NCBI GenBank assembly: GCA_937951625.1
Contig: CALFBP010000010.1
Coordinates: 1 to 64,000 of the forward strand
Reading direction: 5' to 3'
Length of the DNA: 64,000 bases
DNA from: an uncultured Thermoguttaceae bacterium
GTDB taxonomy: Bacteria > Planctomycetota > Planctomycetia > Pirellulales > Thermoguttaceae
The translations under genes and the position numbers were made by a program. The number at the start of each line of letters is the position of its first letter. The first letter of the stretch is position 1. Below are positions 36,412-45,446 of the stretch, piece by piece. The notes beneath the pieces were generated by a model. The model was not told the origin of the DNA. It worked only from the letters and a program-made list of their open reading frames with translations, and made no database searches.

Positions 36412-38319
36412 TTAATCTTCTGGGGCGATGGGCAGGCGTACCGTAAAGGTAGTGCCCTTGCCTTCTTCGCTCTCGACTTCGATGGTGCCGCCGTGCTGCT
36501 GGACGATCCCGTAACTGACGCTCAGGCCCAGCCCAGTTCCCTTGCCTACGGGTTTGGTGGTGAAAAACGGTTCGAAGACATGATCCAAGTGTTCAGGTTT
36601 GATGCCTGCACCGGTATCGGTAACTCGGACCACGACGGCGCCGTTTTCGAGGGAGGTGCTGACTAGCAACGTGCCGCCGTTGGGCATGGCTTCGCAAGCG
36701 TTGAGCGCTAAGTTCACGAAGACTTGCTCCAGTTGGTTCTTGTCGCCATCGATTGGTGGCAAGTCGTCGGCGAGATCCTCGACGATAATGATACTTTGGA
36801 AGGCATCGCGTTTGCCCAACAGTTTCAGCGTTTGCCGCACCACGTCGTTGACCGACAATCGCGTTTTGACTGAGGGGGTTTCGCGGGCGAAATCGAGCAG
36901 TCCACGGACGATTTCCCTGGCCCGCTTCGTCTCGCGGATGATCAAGTCCAGGTCTTGCCGATCCTGATCGTCGAGATTGGGCTTTTCCCGGAGCAGATCA
37001 GCAAAGGCAAGCACCCCGGTCAGCGGATTATTGATTTCGTGGGCGACCCCTGCGGCGAGGCGTCCGACGGAAGCCAGCTGCTCGCTCCGCCCGATTTGCT
37101 GCTGCGTGATCTGGCGGAGCAAGGCCTCGCGTTCGGCGACCGCCGCAGCCATGCTGTCGATCGCCCGGCACAGGACGCCCATTTCCCCAGCCGGGCGGAT
37201 ACCAACGCGCGCCGTGAGGTCGCCGCCGATCAACTTTTGCACCATTGCTACCAGGTGGCGGATCGGGCGAAGCACCATTTCATGGGCGGCGAACAAGAGG
37301 ATGACACTCGCCGAGGCGGTGACAACCACAATCGTAAGGAAGACGGCGAAAGCCACGTTCCGCTGATGAAGGAATGGCGACTGAAGCAAACCCACGCTCA
37401 ACGCGCCGATGATCCGCTGCTGGGGGTCCCGGATCGGCTCGCAACTGGCGATGTACCACTCGTCGATCATCAGGGCTGGCTCCGCCGCCCACGTATTCCC
37501 CCGATCCAGAACCTCTTCGCTCACCGCCGCGCTGAGTTGCGTGCCGACGGCCCGGGAACCGTCGCTCATCCTCACGCTCGTGGCGATCCGCAAGTCGCCG
37601 TGGAAGATAGTTACCGCGCCGATGTCTTTGCCCCCGAAGACCTCATTTAAGAGCACCTCTTGCTTGATGGCGTCGACGAGGTCATAGCGGCGGTTGAGCA
37701 GCATGCCGCCATAAAGAAACCCAGCCACTCGGCCGTGGTCATCGCGGATCGGCGACGCTGCGGCGATCACCATGCCATCGGTTCTTAAGGACTTGGGCGA
37801 GGGTCGGGCGGCGGGCGTGGGAATGACCTCTAAGCGGGCACGCTCGGCCAAGTCGTTCCCTTCATTCTCCAGCCGCTCCCGAGAAAGGCTGACGGTCCCG
37901 CTCGCGCTCTTTTGGGTGCTGATGGCTTGGGCCACCAAGGGGTCGCTGCTCAGGTCATCCCCCGATTTGCCGCTTCCGCTCCGACCAACGACCTTGCCCG
38001 TCGCGTCCAACAACACCACGAAATCCAACCCGCCCGCCTCGCTCGTGGCGCGAAGTACCGTAGCCAACCGCACGCGATCGTTGCCCTGGGTGGCCGCTGC
38101 CAGTCCTGGATCCAGCGAACGACCCTTCAAAAGTGCCTCGATGAGGGCGACATGCTTTTGATAGGCGGTCCTTGCCCGATTCAAGTTCCGATGTACCCGA
38201 TTCTGCACTTCCGACATCCACACCTGGCTCAAGTACTGGAAAGTGATCAACGCCAGCAAGGCATTGGCCACGAGAATCGCGGCCACCGCCAAAGTCGTGA
38301 GTCGAAAGCGAATCGTCAT
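36412..38319 (-). CDS. Sensor histidine kinase with Cache and HAMP domains
   Basis: A 635-residue membrane kinase. It has a first transmembrane helix (about 7-28), a Cache-like sensor domain outside the membrane (about 35-295, with DFVVLLDATGKVVGRSGSG), a second helix near 300-325, HAMP (PIRHLVAMVQKLIGGDLTAR), a HisKA helix with the phospho-acceptor His near 415 in GVAHEINNPLTG, and HATPase_c with N box NLALNACEAMPNGG, VTDTGAGI and GKGTGLGLSVSYG. The kinase core resembles NtrB/ZraS-type sensors that partner with sigma54 response regulators, such as the one at 43983 (inference; not adjacent). The frame extends to 38454, but the ATG at 38319 gives a normal N-terminus. Confidence 0.9.
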   Translation of the reverse strand: MTIRFRLTTLAVAAILVANALLALITFQYLSQVWMSEVQNRVHRNLNRARTAYQKHVALIEALLKGRSLDPGLAAATQGNDRVRLATVLRATSEAGGLDFVVLLDATGKVVGRSGSGKSGDDLSSDPLVAQAISTQKSASGTVSLSRERLENEGNDLAERARLEVIPTPAARPSPKSLRTDGMVIAAASPIRDDHGRVAGFLYGGMLLNRRYDLVDAIKQEVLLNEVFGGKDIGAVTIFHGDLRIATSVRMSDGSRAVGTQLSAAVSEEVLDRGNTWAAEPALMIDEWYIASCEPIRDPQQRIIGALSVGLLQSPFLHQRNVAFAVFLTIVVVTASASVILLFAAHEMVLRPIRHLVAMVQKLIGGDLTARVGIRPAGEMGVLCRAIDSMAAAVAEREALLRQITQQQIGRSEQLASVGRLAAGVAHEINNPLTGVLAFADLLREKPNLDDQDRQDLDLIIRETKRAREIVRGLLDFARETPSVKTRLSVNDVVRQTLKLLGKRDAFQSIIIVEDLADDLPPIDGDKNQLEQVFVNLALNACEAMPNGGTLLVSTSLENGAVVVRVTDTGAGIKPEHLDHVFEPFFTTKPVGKGTGLGLSVSYGIVQQHGGTIEVESEEGKGTTFTVRLPIAPED

Positions 38320-38520
38320 GGCAGGCCCCCTCTGCCTTCCGTTCCACCCAAACGCTTTGCGAATGGCGTCAGACTGAAGAGGAAATCGTTGCCGGGCGGG
38401 AAAATGGACTGAAGCGGGGCAGAGCTCGTTGGGGGAAACCCGCTGCCCGTCCAAGCCCGCCTCGATTTCATCCGCACTAGCCTGGATTTGGTCAGTATAT
38501 TCCCTCAGCGAAGCGGCGGA

Positions 38521-38673: not shown

Positions 38674-38895
38674 CACGCCTCCTCAGTTTCCGAGGGGACT
38701 GGCTCCTTGTCCCAACCCCTAAGAAGAGTTAGTTACGGTGTGTGTAGAGTTTTTCGTTCTGGAGCGCTTGCCTACGGGCGTACCGGGGCGATAATCTAAA
38801 GGGTGTCTCATTTCGATGCACCCTGATTGGTGGTTCGTTTCCCCGCGAGTTTCTTCATTTCGGTTTCCAACAATTCTGGTTCGGGGGCTTTTGGC
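38674..38895. other. Divergent spacer between small ORF/kinase and the FHA activator
   Basis: Contains the expected promoters for the leftward kinase region and the rightward FHA gene. No clear -35/-10 or -24/-12 element was found by eye. Confidence 0.3.
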
Positions 38896-40950
38896 GTGGC
38901 CGAGGTTGCTTATCTGGTGATGCGCGAGGGCTCCAAATGGACCGATGTGTTTCGACTTGTGCCCGGTCAGTCGGTCATCATTGGCCGGGCGCCGACCTGC
39001 CAGATTGTGCTCAAGGACGACCGATGTAGCCGGCATCACGCCGAGTTATTCTTACTGGGCGACCAGTGGATGGTGCGCGACCTGGAGAGTCGCAATGGCA
39101 CGGTAGTTGGGGACCAATTGGTTAAGGAAGACCGGCCGTTGATGCCGGGCGACGTGATTCGGATCGGACGTTCGCAATTGGTGTTCGTCCACACGCTGAG
39201 CCAGGCGTTTTCCGAATCGACCGCGGTGGTCCGGCGGCCGGAACGCGAAGTGAGCGAAGACACCGTGTTTCCGCCGGCCGAGGACGAGTCGGATGTACTC
39301 TCGGCGCCTGAGTACGACCCGACCACGATCATGCACCGGCGAGGTCAAACACGATTTCTGGAGCCGGGCGCGGCCGGCTCCAGCGGCGTGGCCAAAGCAA
39401 GCGAAGCGGCTACCAAACTATGCCGCTTGGCCTTCGATCTCGCCCGTGCTCCAGACGTCAAGGGAATGGCGGACGTGGCCCTGGCGGGCCTGTTCGAGGC
39501 CACGCACGTGGACGCTGGCGCCGTGCTCCTATTGCCCCGCGACTTCCATGGTACCCCCCAGGGCAGCGACTTGGTCTTGGTCGCCTCGCGCACAAGTTCC
39601 GAGCGGCGCTACCATCGGGTGCCCCATTTCCTGGCCAACACCGTGATGCGCGAGGGCGAAGCGGTCCTGGCCCGAAACGTGGTGGGCGATAGCTCCATCG
39701 GGAGCCGCGATAGTCGCGGGGAAATCGCTGCCACCAGCGTGATTTGTGCTCCGATCCGGCGCGGGCAGGAAGTCCTGGGGATGATTCATTTGTACTCCAC
39801 CAACCCGGACCGCGTGCCCGATCCGGAAGACCTCGAGTTCACCCTCGCCGTGGCCGACACCGTGGCGGTGGCCCTGACCAATCTCAATCGACAACAGGAG
39901 TTGACCGAACATTTGGTTCAGGTTCGCAACGAGAACGTGGAGCTTCGGGAACGGCTGGGCGTGGAGAGCGAGATCATCGGCCGCAGTCCCGTGATCCGCG
40001 CCATCACGGAGGAGATCGCTCGAGCGGCAGCCAGCCGAGCTACGCTTTTGATCCGCGGGGAGAGCGGGGTGGGTAAGGAACTCGTTGCCCGAGCCGTTCA
40101 CTTCTCCAGCCCACGTCGCAAGAACCCCTTCGTCTGTCTGAACTGCGCCGCGCTTTCAGAAGACCTCTTGGCAAGCGAACTGTTTGGCCACGAGCGGGGA
40201 GCGTTCACTGGGGCCACCGAACGCAAGATCGGCAAGTTCGAGGCCGCCGACTCGGGAACTTTGATGCTCGACGAAATCGGCGAGATGAGCCCCGGAATTC
40301 AAGCCAAGTTTCTTCGCGTGCTGGAGGGACATCCGTTCGAACGCGTGGGCGGCACCAAACCGGTCAGCGCGGACGTGCGCGTGATCGCCGCCACGAACCG
40401 CGACTTGGAACGCGAGGTGGCCGAGGGGCGCTTCCGACGCGACCTCTTCTTTCGGCTCCGCGTCCTGGAGATCGTAGTTCCCCCCTTGCGACGCCGGCCC
40501 GAAGACATCGTCCCCCTCGCTACTCATTTTCTGGAACGGTTTCGCGAAGAGACCGGCCGCAAAATTCAAGGCTTTTCGCCTGCTGCCATCAACCGACTCA
40601 TGGCCTATCGCTGGCCGGGCAACGTTCGGGAGTTGAAAAATGTGATCGAACGGGCCGTGGTGCTCTGCCGCGGAGAGTACATCGACCAGGACGACCTCCT
40701 CTTGTCCAAGCTCTCTACCGCAGGCGACACCACCGAGCATCGCCCGACGGATGTGGGTTTCCGCCCCATCCCCTTGGAGGATATGGAGCGACAACATATT
40801 CTCGGTGCGCTGAATTACACGGGCTGGAACAAGAGCCGCACGGCCGTGCTGTTAGGCATTGAGCGCTCCACGTTGGACCGCAAAATTCGTCGTTACGGCC
40901 TCTCGGAAAACAGCGCTGCCATGCCGCCCAAGGGGGAGCGCCGTGGATAG
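38896..40950 (+). CDS. FHA-GAF sigma54-dependent transcriptional activator
   Basis: About 684 residues. Order: FHA domain (about 20-95: SVIIGRAPTCQIVLKDDRCS, RHHAEL, DLESRNGT), a linker, GAF domain (about 165-340), AAA+ sigma54-interaction domain (about 375-610) and a Fis-type helix-turn-helix (NKSRTAVLLGIERSTLDRKI). The AAA+ part has Walker A GESGVGKE, the sigma54 loop GAFTGA, and MLDEIGEMS. So it can open sigma54 promoters; input is probably a phosphothreonine protein bound by FHA plus a ligand at GAF (known for the domains, inferred here). The start is uncertain: GTG at 38896 gives an FHA start like its family; TTG at 38827 is an alternative. Confidence 0.9.
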   Translation: MAEVAYLVMREGSKWTDVFRLVPGQSVIIGRAPTCQIVLKDDRCSRHHAELFLLGDQWMVRDLESRNGTVVGDQLVKEDRPLMPGDVIRIGRSQLVFVHTLSQAFSESTAVVRRPEREVSEDTVFPPAEDESDVLSAPEYDPTTIMHRRGQTRFLEPGAAGSSGVAKASEAATKLCRLAFDLARAPDVKGMADVALAGLFEATHVDAGAVLLLPRDFHGTPQGSDLVLVASRTSSERRYHRVPHFLANTVMREGEAVLARNVVGDSSIGSRDSRGEIAATSVICAPIRRGQEVLGMIHLYSTNPDRVPDPEDLEFTLAVADTVAVALTNLNRQQELTEHLVQVRNENVELRERLGVESEIIGRSPVIRAITEEIARAAASRATLLIRGESGVGKELVARAVHFSSPRRKNPFVCLNCAALSEDLLASELFGHERGAFTGATERKIGKFEAADSGTLMLDEIGEMSPGIQAKFLRVLEGHPFERVGGTKPVSADVRVIAATNRDLEREVAEGRFRRDLFFRLRVLEIVVPPLRRRPEDIVPLATHFLERFREETGRKIQGFSPAAINRLMAYRWPGNVRELKNVIERAVVLCRGEYIDQDDLLLSKLSTAGDTTEHRPTDVGFRPIPLEDMERQHILGALNYTGWNKSRTAVLLGIERSTLDRKIRRYGLSENSAAMPPKGERRG

Positions 40951-41226: not shown

Positions 41227-41622
41227 TTGGGCGTGAATTCTGGACCACCAAGCAATGCAAAGCCGAGCGAAGTCGTGAACAGCTCTCATTTGCAAGTGAC
41301 GCCCCACGGCGACGTGTTGGTCGTGCGTTTCCTGGACGCACAGCTCGCCGGCGGCCTGCCTGACGAGGTAGGCGCGGAGTTGTACGCCCTCGCTGCAAAA
41401 GAAGACTGCTCCAAACTCCTGCTGAATTTTTCGGCGGTTGAGTTTTTGGCCAGCGACATGCTTGGCAAGATCGTTGTCTTAAACAAAAAGATGAAACAAA
41501 AAGGAGGCAAGTTGGTGCTTTGCAAGCTTTGCCCCAACTTGCGCCAGATTTTGGCCACGACCAAGCTTGATATGATCTTGACGGTCAAGGACACCGAAGC
41601 TGAGGGGCTGACCGCGTTTTAA
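41227..41622 (+). CDS. STAS-domain anti-sigma factor antagonist-like protein
   Basis: A 131-residue single STAS domain, as in SpoIIAA/RsbV. After an N-terminal extension of about 20 residues it shows LQVTPHGDVLVVRFLDAQLA, then LLLNFSAVEFLASDMLGKIV, where the Ser in ASDML matches the residue phosphorylated in antagonists. The end (KLVLCKLCPNLRQILATTKL) fits the fold. Such proteins release a sigma factor or control another partner by phosphorylation switching. No anti-sigma kinase is adjacent. The start is uncertain: TTG 41227 has GGAGGAG 12 bases upstream; GTG at 41233 or 41275 are alternatives. Confidence 0.85.
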   Translation: MGVNSGPPSNAKPSEVVNSSHLQVTPHGDVLVVRFLDAQLAGGLPDEVGAELYALAAKEDCSKLLLNFSAVEFLASDMLGKIVVLNKKMKQKGGKLVLCKLCPNLRQILATTKLDMILTVKDTEAEGLTAF

Positions 41623-41640
41623 CGCTTTGCGTATCCAAGC

Positions 41641-41814
41641 TTGTTCCCGAAACTTCGAGCTGGCCGCCCCGCAAACCGGACAGGCCTTAGGCCCCTCACC
41701 CACCGTGGTGTGCCCACATACCTCGCACACAGAGATGACCACTTCCTCGAGGTCCTGGCCGTTTTTGATGGCCTCCAGGACCTCGCAGTAAAGGCCTTAA
41801 CGCGTTTTTTCCAC
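41641..41814 (-). pseudogene. Remnant of rubrerythrin (C-terminal rubredoxin-like part)
   Basis: Read leftwards, this stretch encodes CEVCGHTTVGEGPKACPVCG followed by AASSKFRE, the Cys4 iron site that ends rubrerythrins. Preceding it is VEKTR-stop-GLYCEVLEAIKNGQ, matching the end of the ferritin-like helix with the usual THAGLY mutated to an in-frame stop (41797-41799). No four-helix di-iron domain lies upstream, and the frame runs past the expected end into the opposite strand of the STAS gene. It is therefore a truncated, decayed gene. A short expressed rubredoxin-like peptide from an internal GTG (41742) cannot be wholly excluded. Confidence 0.6.
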
Positions 41815-42014: not shown

Positions 42015-42830
42015 TCACCGGGGCTTCACCGTCTCCTTAGCTCGCAGCTCGCGGCAAATCTCTTGCACCAAGTGGTGCGGGTCGATCGGCTTCTCGAACC
42101 AGCGGTCCACCCCTTGCGGACCAATGGGAATGTCCCAGGCGGTTGGTGAACATCCGCTGACAGCGAAGACCTTCACTTGGTCCAAGGATCGTTGGGCGCG
42201 AACCTTACGGAGGAACGTGGGACCATCGCAGACAGGCATGGACATATCCAAGAGCACGAGGTCTGGGCACTCGCCTGTTTGGAGGCAATCCAACGCAGCT
42301 TGCCCATCGCCAGCAGTTTCAACCTGGAATCCGGAGGTCCGCAGGTACCCGGCGAGCAGGTGGCGTTCATTGGCATTGTCTTCGACCAACAACGCACGTC
42401 GGGGCACCCCGTCGCCGCAGGGCGATCCTGCCTCACAATCGAAAGCGGGCAGATTGCAACATTCCGATGTTCGCGCGTTGTCTTGTTCAATCGAATGGAA
42501 TTCTTCCAGAACTGCTTGGATCAAATCGGCGGCTTCGTCGAGCCGATTGGCCTCTAAGTACCGTCGAATCAACTGCATCCGCAGCCCCGCCGAATGGAGC
42601 CAATTGCGAACACGGTGCATCAGTTTGCCCGAGGGATCCTCCAGCCGACCATCGATGATTGCGGCTAGCTTCTCGCGCGACCGCGCCAGTTCGCCGCGGA
42701 GCACTTTGATTTTGCTGGGGGCTTGGATGCCGATACGGGCAGCACTGCCCTTGATAGCCAAGACTTCCAAAACGACATCAAGTTCGGGAAATACGAGGGT
42801 CTCGCCCTCGCGGCGCGAGAGAACGAGCAT
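42015..42830 (-). CDS. CsrA domain fused to response-regulator receiver domain
   Basis: A 271-residue fusion. Residues 1-60 are a CsrA RNA-binding domain (MLVLSRREGETLVF, LEVLAIKGSAARIGIQAP, KIKVLRGELA) with Arg45 at the place of the RNA-contact Arg44 of Escherichia coli CsrA. A helical linker (about 65-120) contains MHRVRNWLHSAGLRMQLIRR. Residues about 145-262 are a receiver domain with acidic pair Glu150-Asp151, phospho-acceptor Asp195 (LVLLDMSMP), Ser225 and Lys247, so it looks active. The arrangement suggests phosphorylation-controlled post-transcriptional regulation (inference). The start at 42830 has AAAGGAGCC upstream; the longer frame to 42956 would precede the CsrA Met without family support. 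Confidence 0.88.
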   Translation of the reverse strand: MLVLSRREGETLVFPELDVVLEVLAIKGSAARIGIQAPSKIKVLRGELARSREKLAAIIDGRLEDPSGKLMHRVRNWLHSAGLRMQLIRRYLEANRLDEAADLIQAVLEEFHSIEQDNARTSECCNLPAFDCEAGSPCGDGVPRRALLVEDNANERHLLAGYLRTSGFQVETAGDGQAALDCLQTGECPDLVLLDMSMPVCDGPTFLRKVRAQRSLDQVKVFAVSGCSPTAWDIPIGPQGVDRWFEKPIDPHHLVQEICRELRAKETVKPR

Positions 42831-43041
42831 GGCAGGGGCTCCTTTCCAGCCGTCGGTCGGGCACCCTGGCGAAATTCTCGCCAAGTCTCCTGTCCCCGCC
42901 CGGCCTAAAACTTTGACGTCGGGTAACGCGAAGAAAAGCCCGATCGCCACTAACACCCCGATCGCACCGCTTCCCTGCCGACAAACCCCGCTAATAGGCG
43001 GGTAGGCCCTCCTTGCCTAGACTATGCGACACGGTAGCATA

Positions 43042-43712: not shown

Positions 43713-43982
43713 AGCGAAGCTTACAAGGTAAGCCCCACGGAAATTCTTGTTCCCACTAAAAGGGGGAAAGTAAAAAGTTCACAAACGGGAGTCCTGTTTT
43801 TCAGTTTCTTTCAGCGACCCGGCTGACGGGCTGACGGTCCCGTGAATGCGTTGGGGGTAATTCAGTGTGGCGGCGAATCGCAGGCAAGGGGATCGCGATG
43901 ACCCAGCAATGGGCCTCGCATTGGATGGTCCCCACGGGCGGTGGATGCGTTTCAGCGGATCCGTGAATGGTGGAGACGCACG

Positions 43983-45446
43983 ATGTCGAGACTTCTGGTG
44001 ATCGACGACGAACCTGGCATCCAGTTCAGTATCGAACAGGTGCTCGCCGAGGAAGACTTCGAGTTGCTCCATGCAGAGACGGCCGAACAGGGCCTCCGGC
44101 TAGCCTCGGAATATAAACCGGACGTGATCCTTTTGGATATCCGACTGGGCGACCGTTCCGGACTCGAACTGTTTCACGACCTCCGCCGCTTGGATCCCAA
44201 GACCCTGATCATCTTCATTACCGGACACGGCAGCGCCGACACGGCGATCGAGGCCATGAAGCTGGGGGCCTACGACTACCTGGTGAAGCCCCTGGACGCG
44301 GATCAGCTTCAGCAAGTGGTCAGCCAGGCCATGGCGATCAGCCGCATGATGCACGTTCCCACGATCGTCGAGGAAGCGGACCGGCCTGAGGATCGTCCTG
44401 ACCGATTGATCGGCAGCGGTGCGGCCATGCAGGCGGTGTGCAAGCAGATTGGTCGGGTGGCCCCTCAGGATGTGAACGTGCTCATTCTTGGCGAGAGCGG
44501 CACAGGCAAGGAACTCGTCGCGCGGGCCATCTACCATCACAGCCGCCGCAGCCAGGCCCCGTTCCTGGCGATCAATTGCGCCGCGATCCCCGAATCGCTG
44601 CTGGAGAGCGAGTTGTTCGGGCACGAGCGCGGGGCGTTCACCGGGGCGGACCGGCGCCGGATCGGCAAGTTCGAGCAATCGCACGGCGGCACGCTGTTGC
44701 TCGACGAAATCGGCGACATGGCGCCTGGCACCCAGGCCAAGATCCTCCGGCTGCTCCAGGAGGGGAGTTTCGAGCGGCTCGGCGGCAGCGAACCGATCAC
44801 GGCCAACGTGCGGGTGATTGCCGCCACAAACCAGAATCTCGACGCCTTGATCGAGCAGGGACGGTTTCGCAAGGACCTTTACTATCGGCTTCGCGGAGTG
44901 ACGATCATCCTCCCGCCGCTCCGCGAGCGGACCGAAGACATCGCCGAATTGGCCCACTATTTCCTCTTCCGTTACAACCGGCAATTGGGGACGTCGGTGC
45001 AATCCATCGCCCCCGAGGCGCTGGAACTCTTGGAGCGTTACTCCTGGCCCGGCAATGTCCGCGAGTTGCAAAGCGTGATCCGCGAAGCGCTTTTGGCATC
45101 GGCGGGGCCCACCCTGCTGCCTGAGTTTCTCCCGCCGGAATTGCGGCGCGAGAGCCCTATGGAGCGCGAGCCCGAAGCCAAGCTTGCCCCGATGGGGGAG
45201 GAGGATTGGCAATCGCTTTCCTTCTTCGTCGACAACGCCGCGGCCTGTGGTGAAACCGACGTTTACCGCCGGGCGCTCCAACGCTTCGACCGGCTAGTGA
45301 TTGCGGCGGTGATGCGTCGGACGGGGGGGCAACAGAACAAAGCCGCGGAGATCCTGGGACTGAGCCGGGCCACGCTCCGTGCCAAGCTCCGGCAGATGCA
45401 AATGGCGGTGGAGAAAATCCTGGCCCCCCAAGACCCCAAGAATTGA
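43983..45446 (+). CDS. NtrC-family sigma54 response regulator
   Basis: A 487-residue regulator: receiver domain (1-120; DD pair at 8-9 in VIDDEPG, phospho-acceptor Asp52 in ILLDIRL, Thr in FITGHG, Lys in LVKPLD), AAA+ domain (about 140-375) with Walker A GESGTGKE, GAFTGA and LLDEIGDMA, and a C-terminal Fis-type helix-turn-helix (NKAAEILGLSRATLRAKLRQ). It activates sigma54 promoters when phosphorylated. The kinase at 36412 is a candidate partner. The frame is open from 43941, but ATG 43983 starts directly at the receiver strand and has GGAG seven bases upstream. It ends 12 bases from the convergent phoU-like gene. Confidence 0.93.
   Translation: MSRLLVIDDEPGIQFSIEQVLAEEDFELLHAETAEQGLRLASEYKPDVILLDIRLGDRSGLELFHDLRRLDPKTLIIFITGHGSADTAIEAMKLGAYDYLVKPLDADQLQQVVSQAMAISRMMHVPTIVEEADRPEDRPDRLIGSGAAMQAVCKQIGRVAPQDVNVLILGESGTGKELVARAIYHHSRRSQAPFLAINCAAIPESLLESELFGHERGAFTGADRRRIGKFEQSHGGTLLLDEIGDMAPGTQAKILRLLQEGSFERLGGSEPITANVRVIAATNQNLDALIEQGRFRKDLYYRLRGVTIILPPLRERTEDIAELAHYFLFRYNRQLGTSVQSIAPEALELLERYSWPGNVRELQSVIREALLASAGPTLLPEFLPPELRRESPMEREPEAKLAPMGEEDWQSLSFFVDNAAACGETDVYRRALQRFDRLVIAAVMRRTGGQQNKAAEILGLSRATLRAKLRQMQMAVEKILAPQDPKN

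Follow-up and report, generated by a model that had tools for sequence, protein, structure and literature searches.

A planctomycete CsrA-receiver fusion with a kinase-like histidine hairpin: a candidate RNA-binding end point of a phosphorelay

Gene and domain layout

The window, i.e., the whole stretch of 64,000 nucleotides analyzed here, carries on its reverse strand a gene in which a CsrA domain, a DHp-like helical hairpin, and a receiver (REC) domain follow one another in a single frame. Its features are as follows.

42015..42830, reverse strand: CsrA-DHp-REC gene, 271 amino acids plus stop; single ATG-to-stop frame with full-length homologues
42839..42845, reverse strand: Shine-Dalgarno-like AAAGGAG, 8 nt 5' of the ATG, read from the sequence
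42681..42830, reverse strand: CsrA domain, residues 1-50, with R6 and R45 (Pfam and alignment to solved CsrA)
42459..42635, reverse strand: DHp-like helical hairpin, residues 66-124, without an ATPase domain (AlphaFold, profile match, Pfam HisKA)
42603..42617, reverse strand: H-box H72-R-V-R-N76, with candidate phospho-accepting His72 and Asn76 (conservation)
42045..42401, reverse strand: REC domain, residues 144-262 (Pfam Response_reg and structural match)
42246..42248, reverse strand: D195, phospho-acceptor aspartate (D in 67/70 and 60/60 fusions)

The initial annotation had proposed that CsrA is fused to a receiver in one gene, and this was confirmed: Pfam recognized both CsrA and Response_reg within the one open frame, and homologues aligned from residue 1 or 2 to about residues 255-267 at 25-49% identity (three more at 32-34%). 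Two separate genes or a frameshift are ruled out by the single frame together with these full-length homologues, and the fusion is genuine rather than a product of chance. The linker letters given in that annotation were also correct.

The CsrA part (residues 1-50) scored 49.4 bits against a Pfam cut-off of 27 (PF02599) and aligned to the solved CsrA structures 7yr6, 1y00, and 2bti with E values of 4e-8 to 1.4e-7; relative to the solved proteins, one residue is inserted. We take R6 and R45 to correspond to the RNA-contacting R6 and R44 of Escherichia coli CsrA, located close to the N terminus and in the final strand, respectively. The receiver part (residues 147-258) reached 62.7 bits against a cut-off of 30.2 (Response_reg, PF00072), and its model matched solved receivers, with the best Z score (19.0) for PhoB (1zes; rmsd of 1.8 over 120 residues); the VIA-align comparison, run with the whole model, tested the REC part only. 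As had been claimed, the phosphorylation residues are intact: E150, D151, D195, S225, and K247 are all there, and D195 is the phospho-acceptor named previously.

Around the gene lie a Cache-HAMP kinase (36412-38454, reverse strand), an FHA-GAF-sigma-54 activator (38827-40950, forward strand), and an NtrC-type regulator (43941-45446, forward strand). A short reverse-strand frame (41482-41742) with a rubrerythrin-type rubredoxin domain (33.1 bits) overlaps the end of an opposite-strand STAS gene (41230-41619).

Distribution and conservation of the fusion

The survey of CsrA-REC fusions that had been called for found relatives in one class, to which all matching genomes of the phylum sample belonged. 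Of the 397 genomes sampled from the class, at least 110 (over a quarter) matched the family profile at an E value of 1e-30 or better (two of the 110, G234 and G467, show partial matches only), as did at least 37 of 393 genomes of the phylum sample, all 37 of them inside the same class. These counts are lower bounds since only the best candidates were scored per genome: up to 8 in the initial search, 6 in the class and phylum searches, and 4 for the kinase core considered below. The class is probably Planctomycetia, as the named relatives are metagenome-assembled genomes labeled Pirellulaceae or Planctomycetales. The fusion is patchy: in the family to which the window belongs, only G024 also matches among the genomes listed.

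Conservation was assessed in 130 fusions, comprising a 70-row set and 60 fusions retrieved later as a second test (59 belong to other orders of the class and one, L208, to the family of the window). The 70-row set includes three linker-less copies (L135, L078, and L082), two loci (L101 and L102) have no fusion row, and the 130 contain near-duplicates (e.g., L190/L174, L192/L180, L193/L195, and L122/L123/L125/L126; L009 to L011 may overlap other genomes). Both CsrA arginines were kept in 129/130 fusions (second set: R6 in 60/60 and R45 in 59/60), and D195 and K247 of the receiver were kept in 60/60 and 59/60 members, respectively, of the second set.

The linker as a DHp-like hairpin

In the AlphaFold model, which was built from 4 sequences as one chain and has a mean pLDDT of 72 overall, the linker forms two helices (residues 66-93 and 97-124), with pLDDT values of 79-89 over residues 81-110 and about 65 around H72; predicted alone, it again gave two helices, at a mean pLDDT of 86. 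The domain search and structure prediction proposed at the outset returned CsrA and REC by Pfam and a helical hairpin between them by AlphaFold.

The initial annotation had also seen in the linker a histidine reminiscent of dimerizing kinase helices, a resemblance that the family bears out. Among the 70 fusions of the first set, the best-conserved linker positions included L78 (58 fusions), R75 (55), N76 (52), L85 (52), H72 (51), and L111 (51), and the resulting pattern, H-x-[LI]-R-N-x-L, is that of the kinase H-box; in the second set of 60, H72 was found in 58, N76 in 56, and L78 in all 60. With His state assigned by alignment column 72, the histidine was present in 109/130 fusions (hereafter, His+), of which 105 also had the asparagine at +4, and these two rank with the best-conserved positions of the linker in otherwise very divergent sets. 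When a profile of 67 linkers (3 of the 70 being too short) was aligned by hhalign with a profile of 40 nonredundant kinase DHp segments, the match had a probability of 94%, an E value of 1.6e-7, and a score of 34.1, with His placed on His; 100 column shuffles scored at most 15.1 and the reversed profile 10.5. Pfam HisKA was matched at an E value of 0.1 or better by 10/70 relatives (best, 1e-4). The window protein's own linker reached only SPOB_a in Pfam, at 16.6 bits and below the cut-off of 28.1, and a Foldseek search with the linker alone yielded 58 weak matches, none at an E value of 0.001 or better and with DesK at rank 41.

No HATPase_c domain was found in the window protein by a Pfam scan at E values up to 1. 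Kinases usually have an acidic residue directly after the H-box histidine; it is absent in 61/109 His+ fusions, including the window protein (R73). The kinase DHp segments above were selected by a pattern (an acid after His plus N, T, or M at +4) and so cannot themselves show that kinases have these residues. The missing acid fits a nonkinase DHp but could also point to a purely structural hairpin. Given the lack of an ATPase domain, the frequent loss of the acid, and the retention of Asn at +4, we read the linker as a DHp domain that has lost autophosphorylation, and it is probably a phosphotransfer step, beyond a mere dimerizing spacer, which would give the scheme proposed below its four steps.

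The state of the receiver was compared with that of the histidine. A full site (acids at 150 and 151, D195, S/T225, and K247) was present in 108/109 His+ fusions, the window protein among them, and in 12/21 His- fusions. The other 9 of the 21 scored as damaged, still with CsrA R6 and R45, so that CsrA can persist without phosphorylation; one of these rows, L135, is probably misaligned, as its own sequence has acids and a Ser nearby. In the His-less fusions L092, L093, L095, L097, L098, and L208, the receiver site likewise seems damaged, and the CsrA arginines are kept.

Histidine kinases beside the fusions

A histidine kinase (HATPase frame) lay within 1 kb of 87/130 fusions, the distances being measured between stop-to-stop frames, not start codons. 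By our own arithmetic, genome density (568 HATPase_c matches in 12 genomes, about 84.7 Mb) would predict about 3.6%. An alternative baseline, in which 333 of 756 random places in the same loci and at least 2.5 kb from the fusion were within 1 kb of a kinase, would at face value speak against strong enrichment; since the loci were cut around the fusions and kinases are up to 4 kb long, we set it aside and used the genome-wide density.

The type of kinase tended to follow the state of the linker. Nearest kinases beside His+ fusions were hybrid, i.e., with a REC of their own, in 72 cases and nonhybrid in 2, with 2 cut off at the locus edge, whereas those beside His- or linker-less fusions were hybrid in 1 case and nonhybrid in 9, with 1 cut off (Fisher P = 1.5e-9 across the 87 fusions with a near kinase). 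On a tree of the rows with both traits, the histidine changed 4 times and the hybrid state 5 times, which leaves 2 independent pairs with support (4 at most) and a sign test that was not significant, so the association is phylogenetically thin. Among the exceptions, L096, with a hybrid kinase beside a His- fusion, also has a REC site that looks damaged, and L010, one of the two His+ fusions whose nearest kinase is nonhybrid, has a hybrid kinase 615 nt away.

Pfam scans of eight kinases beside linker-bearing fusions or in their clusters found a C-terminal REC in 7 and CheB-CheR-PAS inputs in 5; all five large kinases scanned (>1,100 amino acids) had CheB, CheR, and PAS domains. A CheB motif was present in at least 32/87 nearest kinases, a lower bound as some frames are cut off. 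These hybrid kinases are likely partners, not part of the CsrA-DHp-REC protein itself.

Both arrangements occur side by side in seven loci (L071, L073, L074, L075, L078, L084, and L086), where a His- or linker-less CsrA-REC adjoins a nonhybrid kinase and a His+ one adjoins a hybrid kinase. Eight loci of 15-19.5 kb (these seven and L082) contain two CsrA-REC genes and at least two kinases, several with the CheB motif; one CsrA-REC has the histidine, and the other has lost the histidine or the linker.

A candidate partner kinase in trans

The window gene itself has no kinase within 1 kb. Elsewhere in the genome, contig C33 encodes an orphan kinase of 1,355 amino acids with the architecture CheB-CheR-PAS-PAS-HisKA-HATPase-REC; no CsrA match was found on that contig, so no CsrA-REC lies beside it. 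As a homologue of kinases that adjoin relatives of the fusion (60% identity over 1,297 amino acids to the kinase beside the L183 fusion and 57% over 1,335 to that beside L106), it is a candidate and the probable partner in trans of the window protein. The description of the region as full of signaling genes stands as to their presence (two sigma-54 activators and the Cache kinase); they are probably not partners, the partner homologue being on C33. The Cache kinase is not favored in that role, as it lies 3.5 kb off and has no REC, and its similarity to the C33 kinase is confined to the kinase core common to such proteins (30% over 233 amino acids).

Close relatives of the C33 kinase core were found in at least 96 of the 110 fusion genomes versus at least 109 of 287 others, a comparison that ignores kinship and genome size and in which up to 4 candidates were scored per genome; G324, G333, and G495 are counted there as lacking the core although a hybrid kinase adjoins their fusions (L197, L203, and L225). 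Within the 98 fusion genomes with a retrieved fusion (12 of the 110 were left out), a core relative occurred in 86/90 with a His+ fusion versus 2/8 with His- fusions only.

Of the 26 ATPase matches in this genome, six are followed by a REC in the same frame, as read by eye, and one of the six is a CheA by its Hpt match. There are five Hpt matches, only one of which is in a short stand-alone frame (116 amino acids).

The genome has 10 CsrA matches, against a range of 5 to 17 per genome across 12 genomes of Planctomycetes. One of them directly follows a fliW match (G000:C18:90992-91552), presumably a classical pair, with nine other CsrA matches elsewhere; classical CsrA control thus probably exists here in parallel. 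A second CsrA-REC (L135:4817-5428; G000:C1, about 93816) is 204 amino acids long and lacks the helical linker; a kinase that has no REC is encoded 150 nt away. A perfect sigma-54-like site, TGGCAC-N5-TTGC, precedes the start of this second fusion by about 55 nt, and its score was reached by 0/650 random 250-nt stretches. Apart from L135, a sigma-54 promoter before the fusion gene was not upheld, as the 250 nt upstream of the 130 fusions scored no better than the 650 random stretches, and a window-wide scan gave 83 sigma-54 matches where 70 were expected, and 10 of 100 shuffles gave at least as many. CsrA is reported to be enriched in the sigma-54 regulon of Planctomycetia (PMC12316311).

Proposed phosphorelay and alternative readings

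The domain make-up, conservation, neighborhood, and co-occurrence described above are computational observations; we infer the phosphotransfer steps, dimerization, RNA binding, its change on phosphorylation, and the sign of control. The best reading, which we hold to be somewhat more probable than all others taken together, is a relay of the order His (kinase), Asp (kinase REC), His (linker), Asp (REC), and CsrA, in which the protein would be a dimeric response regulator that binds RNA and carries a histidine phosphotransferase of its own. A hybrid kinase (sensor parts-HisKA-ATPase-REC) would autophosphorylate on His and move the phosphoryl group to the Asp of its REC; from there, in the manner of Spo0B or ChpT, His72 of the DHp hairpin would take it over and hand it to D195 of the C-terminal REC. 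The phosphorylated REC may then repack on the hairpin and alter how the CsrA dimer is arranged or how accessible it is, and this change would switch binding to GGA-type mRNA sites. The His step would be dispensable with a kinase that has no REC of its own, and there it has been lost or is absent; the kinase role in this genome would be filled by the orphan C33 kinase. As a conjecture, we lean slightly toward phosphorylation lowering RNA binding. Direct phosphorelay control of a CsrA protein, as first suggested by the initial annotation, stays the favored, predicted reading.

The strongest competitor, which we nevertheless consider unlikely, is an ordinary two-step regulator in which a kinase phosphorylates D195 directly and the hairpin is a kinase-derived dimerization spacer whose histidine is kept for packing. 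CsrA proteins act as dimers, and such a hairpin would pair two chains; two His+ fusions have a nonhybrid nearest kinase; and the whole REC site in 12/21 His- fusions suggests that the receiver probably works without the histidine there. Against it stand the rank of H72 and the Asn at +4 among the best-conserved residues of divergent linkers and the hybrid nature of 72 of the 74 classifiable kinases beside His+ fusions, with L010 having its hybrid kinase close by.

Less probable again is a hairpin that acts as a built-in phosphatase or sink, with Asn76 aiding hydrolysis of phospho-D195 and His72 draining the phosphoryl group back, thereby setting the on-time of CsrA. In HisKA kinases, the polar residue at H+4 serves REC dephosphorylation, and Asn holds this position in 105/109 His+ fusions; this function alone, however, leaves the hybrid state of the neighboring kinases unexplained. 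That REC and DHp form a signal-independent platform for oligomerization or partner docking, with CsrA the sole active module, would suit the 9/21 His- fusions that keep both arginines beside a damaged-scoring REC (L135 included, with its probable misalignment) but is very improbable given the complete site in all but one of the 109 His+ fusions, the window's included.

Extended to the class, the phosphorelay reading would describe a relay that ends in an RNA-binding protein, with a fused, ATPase-less phosphotransferase linker fed by hybrid kinases, often of the CheB-CheR type, so that signals would reach CsrA by phosphorylation without a small RNA, FliW, or a transcription step; in the paired loci, a His-less CsrA-REC with a nonhybrid kinase would be a parallel two-step version. 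We put this wider generalization forward tentatively, judging it a little short of an even chance.

Relation to known systems

CsrA is a global regulator whose control is known mainly as titration; the free protein has about 60 amino acids and is governed by small RNAs or FliW. The N-terminal 50 residues here resemble the CsrA/RsmA family in their match to Pfam CsrA and to solved structures and in keeping R6 and R45, and differ from it in bearing a putative phosphorelay module. CsrA as a phosphorylated output would unite two-component signaling and translation control in one protein and would bring phosphotransferase, acceptor, and output together in one chain. For Planctomycetes with their many CsrA copies, the fusion family suggests how some of these may be individually wired.

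The CsrA-REC class is not new, as CsrA was already named among the output domains of response regulators in PMC2222644, citing Galperin 2006; the passage concerned mentions no DHp part, hybrid-kinase partner, or distribution. No description of the DHp part in CsrA-REC or of the kinase link was found in listings from searches of the open-license literature, and a DHp linker with a phospho-acceptor-like His in CsrA-REC looks new. The joining of REC to an RNA-binding domain is shared with response regulators of RNA-binding output (ANTAR and CsrA); ANTAR proteins bind RNA as antiterminators, according to PMC12471899, which also places E. coli CsrA itself among the orphan response regulators, an entry that we take as a slip.

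Hybrid kinases relay through a histidine phosphotransferase (HPt or pseudo-kinase) between their own REC and the final REC (PMC9981736), and ChpT, which cannot autophosphorylate, is such a phosphotransferase (PMC3433190). Both stations that the hybrid kinases still lack, the phosphotransferase and the final REC, could come from the CsrA protein. Its linker is like Spo0B, ChpT, and the pseudo-kinases in being a DHp-type hairpin with a histidine and no working kinase and in its presumed place between a hybrid kinase and a terminal REC; unlike them, it has no ATPase domain and is fused to its presumed acceptor REC and to the output domain.
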